In this document: piece after piece, positions 21,074 to 23,272 of the stretch | Layout: each line of letters opens with the position of its first letter | How positions within the stretch are numbered: position 1 is the stretch's first letter | From: Tropicimonas sp. IMCC6043 | Lineage (GTDB): Bacteria; Pseudomonadota; Alphaproteobacteria; Rhodobacterales; Rhodobacteraceae | Direction of reading: 5' to 3' | Assembly (NCBI RefSeq): GCF_004146235.1 | Contig: NZ_SELO01000019.1 | Coordinates: 1-64,000, forward strand | DNA length: 64,000 bases | Made by a program: the position numbers and the translations under genes | The notes under the pieces: model-generated | The model's database searches: none | Told to the model about the DNA's origin: nothing | What the model saw: the letters and a program-made list of their open reading frames with translations, nothing else

Positions 21074-21234
21074 CCCAACGGGAGAGCGTCGCGCGATCCT
21101 GTCTCGTCTGGCCCCTTGAATTTTTTAGTCCCGGGTATGCCTCGCTGAACCGGCCATCCGGCAGATGTTGCTAGGTCGTGTTGACAAAAGGGATTCACAC
21201 TCGGCAGTAGGCGTGATTCAAGCTGGTATCTGCG

Positions 21235-21688
21235 ATGGAGACCAGCTTGGCACGAAACCTGATGTCGGAATGAGGCGGGTCAGAAAACGGTCCGGGGGAC
21301 CGTTTTCCCGGCGAATGAGTGGGCGTTCTTTGAGCGGTTCATCTTGTCTGTCCGCGCCCCGAATGGGCGCAAACCCACAGACCACCGGCTTGTTCTTGAT
21401 GGTGTTTTCTGGATTGCTCGGACAGGGGCACCATGGCGGGACTTGCCCGAAGAGTTCGGAAAGTGGTCAAGTGTCTATCGGCAGTTCCGCCGCTGGACGC
21501 TCGCCGGTCTCTGGGATCAGATCCTGGAGGCGCTGACCGAGAGCCGGATCGTCCCTGACGCCCTGCAAATGGTCGATAGCACCGTGGTTCGCGCCCATCA
21601 TCAGGCAGCGGGCGCTAAAGGGGGACTCCGCGACAGGGTTTTGGCCGCTCAAAGGGTGGCTTCACGACCAAGATCCACCTCCGGGTGA
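21235..21688 (+). pseudogene. IS5-family transposase orfA, broken near its start
   Basis: Translation from the ATG at 21235 gives METSLARNLMSE and then TGA, because a 43 bp palindrome (21271-21313) interrupts the gene. After the insert the expected sequence resumes one frame over (NEWAFFERFILSVRAPNGRK) with RTGAPWRDLPEEFGKWSSVYR and the first catalytic Asp in QMVDSTVVRAHH. In intact relatives orfA is fused to orfB by a -1 slip; the slippery AAAGGGGG is present at 21617-21624. Comparison with intact relatives is from memory. Confidence 0.8.
21271..21313. repeat. Palindromic insertion element, copy 1 (in IS427-like orfA)
   Basis: A 43 bp segment starting TGAG and ending CGGCG, with a 10 bp stem AAAACGGTCC / GGACCGTTTT around GGG. 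It interrupts an otherwise continuous transposase reading frame. A second, about 77 percent similar copy with the same ends lies in the neighbouring IS. Confidence 0.7.
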
Positions 21689-22065
21689 ATGCCGCCGGTC
21701 TGCCGATGCCGACTGACATCACACCCGGCCAGACATCGGATTATCTCGGCTTCGATCTCGTCATGGACGACAACCTCCCCGAACCGTCCGTCCTGCTGGC
21801 CGACAAAGGCTATGATGCTGACAGCATTCGCGACGAGATGCGGGAACGGGCCATTCAACCAGTGATCCCCATGCGGAAGTCGCGAAAGAAGCGTGTTGGC
21901 GTTGATCGCCCACTGTATCGCTTGCGGAACTTGGTGGAGAGATGCTTCAACAAGCTCAAGAATGCACGCCGAGTCGCGACCCGCTACGACAAAACGGCTG
22001 AAAGCTTCCTCGGCTTCATCGACATCACATCAATCCGCCTCTGGCTCCGCCATTTGTCAACATGA
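21620..22065 (+). CDS. IS5-family transposase orfB
   Basis: The -1 frame reads TPRQGFGRSKGGFTTKIHLR from just after the slip site, then carries the remaining DDE residues: the second Asp in LLADKGYDAD and the Glu in LRNLVERCFNKLKN. An ATG-type start at 21685 would miss the first part, so this frame is normally made only by frameshifting from orfA. Its coding sequence looks undamaged. Confidence 0.75.
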
Positions 22066-22277
22066 CCTAAGGTTCTCGTACATCGCGAGAAGAATGCGCT
22101 CGGCAACTTACGGATAGTTTGCAAAAGGGGAAATCCCAAGCTCGCCCTTCTCGATTCCGTTCTGCGCCTCGTAGATTACCTAGTACTCCAATCGTCATCA
22201 GCACTCTCAGCACGGAAAGCATCTCCGGATCGGCTTCGGTCGGGTCGTCGGGCACTATTGCACACATCGGCTGAAGG

Positions 22278-23083
22278 TCAGGGTTGCCTTTTCCCCTGAC
22301 GGAGGTATCCCGCAGCCTCTGTGAAGGGCATGCCGAGCGCGGTGTAGCGGTTCAGGGCGGCGATTTGGATCTGGATCTCGGGAACTTGGCGGTCGAAGTC
22401 CCGCGCCATCAACCGCTGGCCCAGAAGTTTTACGCAAAGTATCTTCCTTTCGACGCGGTTCTGGCAGTGGTATCAGTTCCATCGTCGCCACAGAGCCCAA
22501 CCGAGGTATTTCGCCGCGCGCAGCGCCTCGTTTCGGGCCATGGCTCCGGCGGTGACGGTCTGCCATGGTTTGGCGTTCTCGCGGTGCGGGAGTGAGAAGG
22601 AAAGGAAATGCTCCGGAGGACCATTTCCCCGACGAACGGCATGGGCGCCGCGGTCGGAGATGGCATCGTGGAATTTGCGGGCGTGCCATTCGCCTTCGCC
22701 CTCGACCTTGATGCCGGTGCTGTCGATCAGCAGGTGCAGCGGCCCTTTGGATTTCCGGTAGGGGATGTTGACAGCCAGGGTCTCCTGACGGCGAGAAGCG
22801 TGCTGAAGTCGTGCGCCGTCCAATCGAGGCCGACCAGCCGCAACAGGCTTGCGACGAACCCGGTCGTTTGCCGCAGCGCCATGCCGAACCGCAGCTTCAT
22901 CGAAAGGCAGGTCTGGATGGCGGCGTCACTGAAGGTCCGTAGGCGCGCGCGCCTGCCCGTGGGTTCGGCCTCCGAATTCATCTCTGAGTCGAACCAGATC
23001 GTCAGCGAGCTACGGCGCTTGAGCGCTTCATTGCAAGTCCGCCAGTTCCTGGTTTTGTAGGCCGGAGGTGTCAGTCTGCTCAT
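22278..23083 (-). pseudogene. IS903-like transposase remnant
   Basis: The start MSRLTPPAYKTRNWRTCNEA and the block AIQTCLSMKLRFGMALRQTT identify the family. The reading frame shifts after DFSTL (about 22800), continues as LLIDSTGIKVEGEGEW, then jumps from HARK to FHDAI, losing roughly 50 residues that include the middle of the DDE domain. A 42 bp palindromic insert adds 14 residues before LPHRENAKPW, and a TGA interrupts after ALWRRWN. The C-terminus (VKLLGQRLMARDFDRQ) is still readable. It cannot be functional. Confidence 0.85.
22593..22634. repeat. Palindromic insertion element, copy 2 (in IS903-like transposase)
   Basis: A 42 bp segment starting TGAG and ending CGACG, built around the imperfect palindrome GGAAATGCTCCGGAGGACCA plus TTTCC. 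It lies inside the transposase frame as 14 extra codons with no stop. Its ends and core match copy 1. Confidence 0.65.
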
Positions 23084-23197
23084 GCAGACCTTCTACTTTG
23101 CTGGATTCTCGGGATGAACCCCTGACAGGAAATGTGCAACAGAGCCAGCGGGGGGGAATCCATAAAATACCTTAAAAATCTGTATTTTGTGGATTTA

Positions 23198-23272
23198 TGG
23201 CAGTCCGTAGGGGAATCGAACCCCTCTTTCCAGGTTGAAAACCTGGCGTCCTAACCGATAGACGAACGGACC
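23198..23272 (-). tRNA. tRNA-Glu (UUC)
   Basis: Read on the minus strand, a 75 nt cloverleaf begins GGTCCGTTCGTCTATCGG. The anticodon stem CCAGG/CCTGG encloses the loop TTTTCAA with anticodon TTC, and the T arm is GGGGTTCGATTCCCC. The acceptor ends CGGACT-G-CCA with CCA encoded. The first acceptor pair is G-U. All arms pair as expected. An AT-rich inverted repeat (AAAATAC/GTATTTT, 23164-23188) follows it and may help end transcription. Confidence 0.96.

Follow-up and report, generated by a model that had tools for sequence, protein, structure and literature searches.

Short hairpin elements with variable, mostly paired ends are found chiefly at mobile genes in the Rhodobacterales

At least three families of short hairpin elements are present in the Rhodobacterales, and one of these, family A, occurs twice in the window, i.e. 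the whole 64,000-nucleotide stretch of Tropicimonas sp. IMCC6043 DNA that was analysed (contig 64; genome size 5.46 Mb). Most of the family A sites tested are at or next to transposase-type frames, a few target bases are usually replaced at insertion, and the terminal dinucleotides of the unit are variable while mostly pairing with each other. Family A hairpins are probably non-autonomous elements of a REP- or RPE-like kind, which enter mobile genes and hitchhike with them and for which an enzyme would be provided in trans.

The first copy in the window is hosted by an IS5-family insertion sequence (IS) on the plus strand (21172..22069), recognised by its DUF4096 and DDE transposase matches in Pfam, relatives annotated as ISPme2, terminal inverted repeats (21172-21191/22050-22069) and identical ends on other contigs. 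Directly past the start of the transposase gene, four target bases have been swapped for a 47-bp family A unit (ATGAG...CGAAT, plus strand, 21270..21316), with a net gain of 43 bp in the comparison of empty and filled sites and a stop at codon 4 of the frame (MSE*). The unit is laid out as ATGAGGCGGGTCAG-AAAACGGTCC-GGG-GGACCGTTTT-CCCGGCGAAT, its stem-loop occupying 21284..21306. Empty sites in L014-L017 delimit the unit; relatives of this IS (L014-L018) have no insert at this place, and L017 and L018 carry inserts of about 35-42 bp at other positions of the gene, by eye members of families B and C. The second copy is a 46-bp family A unit (GTGAG...CGAAC, plus strand, 22592..22637) in a decayed IS5-family IS on the minus strand (22284..23130, limits approximate; DDE_Tnp_1_5 match, relatives annotated as ISPko1). 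Here too four target bases are exchanged, for a net gain of 42 bp; the copy is antisense to the host transposase gene and spanned by an open frame, and the host IS lacks a further stretch besides carrying the insert. Relatives of this second IS (L019-L022) are empty at the same place, while in L020 and L021 other parts of the gene hold inserts of about 35-42 bp, again of families B and C by eye. Just beyond the second IS lies a tRNA gene (Rfam match, 23201-23272, minus strand); besides this, the Rfam scan returned one match at chance level.

An earlier note on this DNA had described one palindromic element in two distinct IS5-family transposase genes, adding 43 bp with an early stop in the first and 42 bp without stops in the second. 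Both copies are confirmed, with 33 aligned bases identical; the flanking frames match Pfam DUF4096, DDE_Tnp_1 and DDE_Tnp_1_5, and both sizes agree with the empty relatives, from which the inserts are absent when each IS is aligned. The limits first proposed, 21271-21313 and 22593-22634, picked out the right places, but the comparison of empty and filled sites moves the edges slightly outwards, to 21270-21316 and 22592-22637. The alignment score of the two copies was matched by none of 5,000 random 46-mers from the window, and a loose core pattern, for which 0.61 matches were expected, found three, one in copy 1 and one on each strand of copy 2, a number equalled in 3 of 100 shuffles. Folded as plus-strand RNA, copy 1 is clearly more stable than its own shuffles (z -3.27). 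The fold of copy 2, GGAAATGCTCC-GGA-GGACCATTTCC with one mispair (22604..22628), is less distinct (z -1.75), 9 of 200 shuffles being equally good.

In its own genome family A was found at eight places. Four of them hold the first IS with its hairpin: one in the window, one on C71 and one at an end of each of the contigs C270 and C111. The aligned parts of these copies are 100% identical and their flanks differ, so the first IS has been copied together with its hairpin. Both C270 and C111 (L003, L004) terminate within that hairpin, the kind of break that identical repeats with strong hairpins would be expected to cause in an assembly. Copy 2 of the window accounts for one of the remaining places. 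The C70 copy is accompanied by an IS481-like transposase, judged by eye and without a Pfam match, and a shorter form of family A at C111 and C78 lies beside frames matching HTH_21 and an integrase core, as in IS3. Few further copies came from the own-genome scan with the strict core pattern. As to the suggestion that the repeat is spreading in this genome, half of these places are one IS that took its hairpin along, and hence they make no case for present-day spread of the hairpin itself. Copies of the first IS that reach the place carry the hairpin as far as they extend, as they would if it were a built-in part of its hosts; relatives without the hairpin, and the same hairpin at seven IS types as well as phage genes, make that explanation almost certainly wrong.

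The exact core pattern was scanned over 84,980 genomes, blind to location, and gave 58 stretches, of which 18 were collapsed for near-identical flanks to leave 40 sites; Paracoccus sp. MKU1 contributed 11 stretches, all the same filled site. Family A matches occur in 24 of 390 Rhodobacterales genomes, the own genome included. The named source genomes are presumed to belong to the Rhodobacterales from their names, other sources being Stappia (Hyphomicrobiales) and metagenome-assembled genomes named just Alphaproteobacteria. The element is 46-49 bp long and occurs in either orientation. With its core constant across these sites, and the IS relatives examined free of the insert, the dispersed, non-autonomous palindromic family that had been anticipated from two copies is upheld. 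Homologous sites may go back to one insertion passed on by descent, in which case there would be fewer insertions than sites. L288 contains two identical family A hairpins (646 and 914) in the same orientation, with the same flanks, 268 bp apart; a filled site has probably been duplicated in tandem. A plasmid of Rhodobacter sp. CZR27 has six occurrences (L034-L039) of a shorter hairpin that shares the stem (GAAAACGGTCCTGAGGACCGTTTTC); their flanks are the same, and all apparently belong to copies of one IS.

To characterise where family A sites lie, Pfam was run on one or two flanking frames per site, picked by codon-position G+C and touching the hairpin or within about 40 bp of it; a match therefore means a frame in contact with or near the hairpin and does not place the hairpin inside that frame. 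The test took in 37 of the 40 sites: L046, L050 and L057 were left out (same place and same IS type as L099), and L059 was represented by its copy L070. A frame matching a transposase, an integrase core or a transposase helix-turn-helix was found at 28 of the 37, eight of these matches being below the Pfam gathering score (L048, L067, L080, L084, L087, L088, L096, L101), whereas an equivalent test of 20 positions drawn at random from ten genomes detected a transposase at one (Fisher p 2e-7). Read from the Pfam names, the host types of the 28 are IS3, IS5, IS21 (IstB), IS66, IS110, IS256 and IS1182. Phage-type genes are at or adjoin three sites (L049, L054, L102; a tail tube gene and, twice, DUF6511, which we take to be phage-type) and an oxidoreductase gene adjoins one (L076). 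The five sites at which no Pfam match was found are L058, L072, L086, L089 and L094; by eye L058 resembles IS66 and L072 IS1182, and L089 is ISPko1-like by DNA. In line with the possible preference for IS genes put forward in the earlier note, most sites are at IS genes, but not exclusively, as phage genes also carry family A. Relative to the matched frame, 16 of the 28 hairpins are sense and 12 antisense (p 0.57), and since both orientations occur, a purely RNA-level or intron-like mode of insertion was rejected.

The same distribution could in principle arise without any target preference, if hairpins inserted anywhere, were purged from needed genes and were left in dead or redundant transposase genes. 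Host ISs are indeed often decayed, as is the host of copy 2, and some have several inserts (the IS3 relatives described below); moreover, the reading frame is ignored in ISs, where net gains are mostly 42-46 bp, yet is open in the 10 viral loci inspected, the hairpin itself having open frames. Against this, intergenic copies should then be at least as many, and only 9 of the 37 sites lack a transposase match. Survival bias alone thus fits the data less well, because copies off mobile genes should be at least as common, and we regard it as a rather unlikely account; the share of transposases would also rise through selective loss of copies from needed genes. The core was further found in 17 viral-contig stretches. 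A frame reading QETV is open across the hairpin in all ten viral loci inspected, although the hairpin itself leaves that frame open. Seven viral frames were searched, with two matches to AAA_24, one to PDDEXK_1 and four frames without a match; L225, L230 and L233 have family A in open viral-contig frames matching AAA_24 and PD-(D/E)XK nuclease. These viral hosts recall the CGTC-tagged REPs, among whose intragenic copies DNA-handling genes recur (Di Nocera et al. 2013, PMC3733652).

An empty relative was available for 30 family A sites, and 25 of these show 3-5 target bases replaced, with a net gain of 42-46 bp. In the main class a 47-bp unit (46 bp in copy 2) takes the place of 4-5 target bases, and where the unit is preceded by T and followed by G, it is counted as 49 bp and replaces 3-4. 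Close pairs illustrate the pattern: 5 bases are replaced in L054 relative to L225 (flanks 97.5% identical) and 4 in copy 1 relative to L016 (92.4%), and L046 has a net gain of 45 bp over L106 (94.0%). The sites outside the 3-5-base rule are L166, L178, L226, L230 and L237, most of which have poor relatives. By eye, no target-site duplication was seen in the empty/filled pairs of family A. The unit ends are yz-GAG...CGA-pq, in which the two bases at each end vary by site and mostly pair (AT/AT, GT/AC, CT/AG, AC/GT, TG/CA). The outer pair y-q is Watson-Crick in 51 of 62 contexts, against a mean of 20.4 in shuffles that take no account of kinship among the contexts, none of 10,000 shuffles reaching 51; the end dinucleotides are fully reverse-complementary in 37 of the 62, and the inner pair is T-T at 14 sites. 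The 62 contexts are those left after collapsing near-identical ones, with odd rows such as L240 kept and copy 2 of the window outside them, as its core does not fit the pattern. Copying of the ends from the target was considered as a general rule and rejected, because two of the three closest pairs speak against it: by eye the lost bases are unlike the hairpin ends in L054 against L225 (97.5%) and L225 against L054 (96.7%), while in L055 against L142 (98.0%) the last three bases match the ends.

Such an anatomy invites an explanation without a transposition enzyme, in which stalled replication of a mobile gene switches to a hairpin template and back, with the loss of a few target bases, and quasi-palindrome correction matches the end pairs. 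The lost target bases with no target duplication seen, the end pairs that vary yet stay complementary and the fully paired end variants GTTTG/CAAAC (L287, L179) all suit this account. What points instead to a defined element is the reuse of the same positions together with a unit length that hardly varies, and no flanking homology past a few bases is visible by eye. Replication template switching stays a fair alternative for family A, given that target bases are lost; overall we judge it unlikely.

Families B and C occur in the same kinds of gene. Relatives of one IS3 gene yielded a list of 28 inserts, 29-66 bp long, of which 18 were assigned by eye (3 to family A, 7 to family B and 8 to family C), the other ten including plain divergence. 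The family B consensus is GTGAGCC...GCCAYTGGTTC...GGCGAAC, with variants, and family C is laid out as CCCTCTCG-hairpin-CTGCCGGGCAG. Two relatives of one IS3 gene (L148, L149) have three inserts apiece, and the positions of family A (L055) and of a B-like hairpin (L139) in the same IS3 gene are a few bases apart; likewise, an ISPko1-like gene holds family A (L089, L097) and family C (L220, L222) a few bases from each other. That families B and C share genes with family A, and in two cases sit within a few bases of one of its sites, suggests a common entry route. The family C pattern is present in 50 of 292 genomes, and when one copy in one locus was taken from each of 30 genomes, a transposase-type frame flanked 21 of the 30 loci (p 3e-6 against random), with L199 under the gathering score. 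The loci without a counted match are L195, L196, L197, L201, L204, L211, L213, L219 and L222; of these, L213 and L222 are ISPko1-like by DNA, and other family C neighbours are weak Rhs, DUF6880 and weak UvrD-helicase matches. Rhs-like frames adjoin family C in L195 (weak Pfam match) and L196 (by eye), and the L196 genome has two family C copies 221 bp apart.

In 22 family C stems, hand-picked as distinct and of equal length rather than at random, pairing holds in 97.5% of pair cells, with a covariation score of 0.733 compared with 0.190 when shuffled (0 of 500 shuffles reaching it). Two weaker measures on the same stems gave both-sided pair changes equalled in 9 of 500 shuffles and further pair types in 138 of 500. 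From this pairing and covariation it follows that the family C hairpin is preserved, by selection or by its mode of formation. Family C resembles a clean insertion of about 40 bp (L021, L222), as opposed to the base replacement of family A, and families A and C may therefore enter by different routes. A more far-reaching possibility is that a dedicated single-strand DNA process inserts hairpins of several families at favoured positions of mobile genes that are incoming or active, with a few bases replaced, whether as a hyperparasite of mobile DNA or as scarring by the host. We hold this to be unlikely; if true, a single machinery at work on unrelated families of hairpins would represent a novel mode of transposition.

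On the favoured reading, that of a non-autonomous hitchhiker in mobile genes, the family A hairpin would move as a folded single strand, with the foot of its stem as the putative recognition feature and an enzyme that the host or another mobile element would provide in trans. Persistence would then come from the multiplication and spread of its mobile hosts. One candidate enzyme is a RAYT (Y1 HUH transposase) of the kind that drives REP elements, and size and hairpin shape are as in REPs. Y1_Tnp genes are present in genomes G181 and G075, i.e. in 2 of the 17 genomes searched, but the own genome, one of the 17, gave no match to a RAYT-type or Y1 transposase and neither did the rest of the 15 lacking Y1_Tnp. 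As the GTAG end is also absent and the sites are not mainly extragenic, a RAYT origin is very improbable.

Small palindromic repeats are best known from extragenic DNA, and the GTAG kind is thought to be moved by RAYTs. The GTAG REPs, BIMEs and REPINs with RAYTs are likewise non-autonomous hairpins of similar length; family A differs in the absence of the GTAG foot, in having no Y1 transposase found in its own genome and in not being mainly extragenic. MITEs share terminal inverted repeats with an autonomous IS and have target-site duplications. Although MITEs and family A are alike in being small, non-autonomous and dispersed, in family A target bases are lost and no target-site duplication was seen. 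Rickettsia palindromic elements (RPEs) insert in frame and the gene stays functional. Family A, which the earlier note had likened to them, is also a palindrome inserted within genes, as the empty and filled sites demonstrate, and the likeness lies in that feature. Net gains in ISs are mostly 42-46 bp whatever the frame, and a frame is open through the hairpin at ten of ten viral loci inspected.

The closest comparison is with the CGTC-tagged REPs, which include Rickettsia RPE-4 and RPE-6 and which have, according to Di Nocera et al. (2013, PMC3733652), an unpaired terminal CGTC (or TGTC/CCTC) tag, an 8-9-bp stem beginning AT, a 4-5-nt loop and a CCA-like tail. As described there, they are mostly intergenic, their links to transposase genes are few and fortuitous, many of their intragenic copies lie in DNA-handling genes, and the movement of CGTC-type palindromes in the absence of a dedicated transposase is posed as an open question. 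Both groups are short alphaproteobacterial palindromes, some of them intragenic, for which a dedicated transposase is not known. Family A has instead a stem of 10 bp, a loop of 3 nt, a bulge of 4 nt and variable ends that pair; the tag, stem, loop and tail of the CGTC-tagged REPs were not found in it, CGTC or CGCC occurring on the reverse strand a few bases inside the end. Nor is it intergenic and away from transposases, 28 of 37 sites being at transposase-type frames. The general plan is held in common, and tag, stem, loop, tail and location differ. A search of the open-licence literature found no description of hairpin families nested in Rhodobacterales transposase genes. In contrast to extragenic repeats, several hairpin families are here mostly at mobile genes, with end pairs that change and yet pair. 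The many empty and filled sites in these genomes are material for asking how such palindromes move, and the stem foot of family A offers a defined bait for an enzyme.
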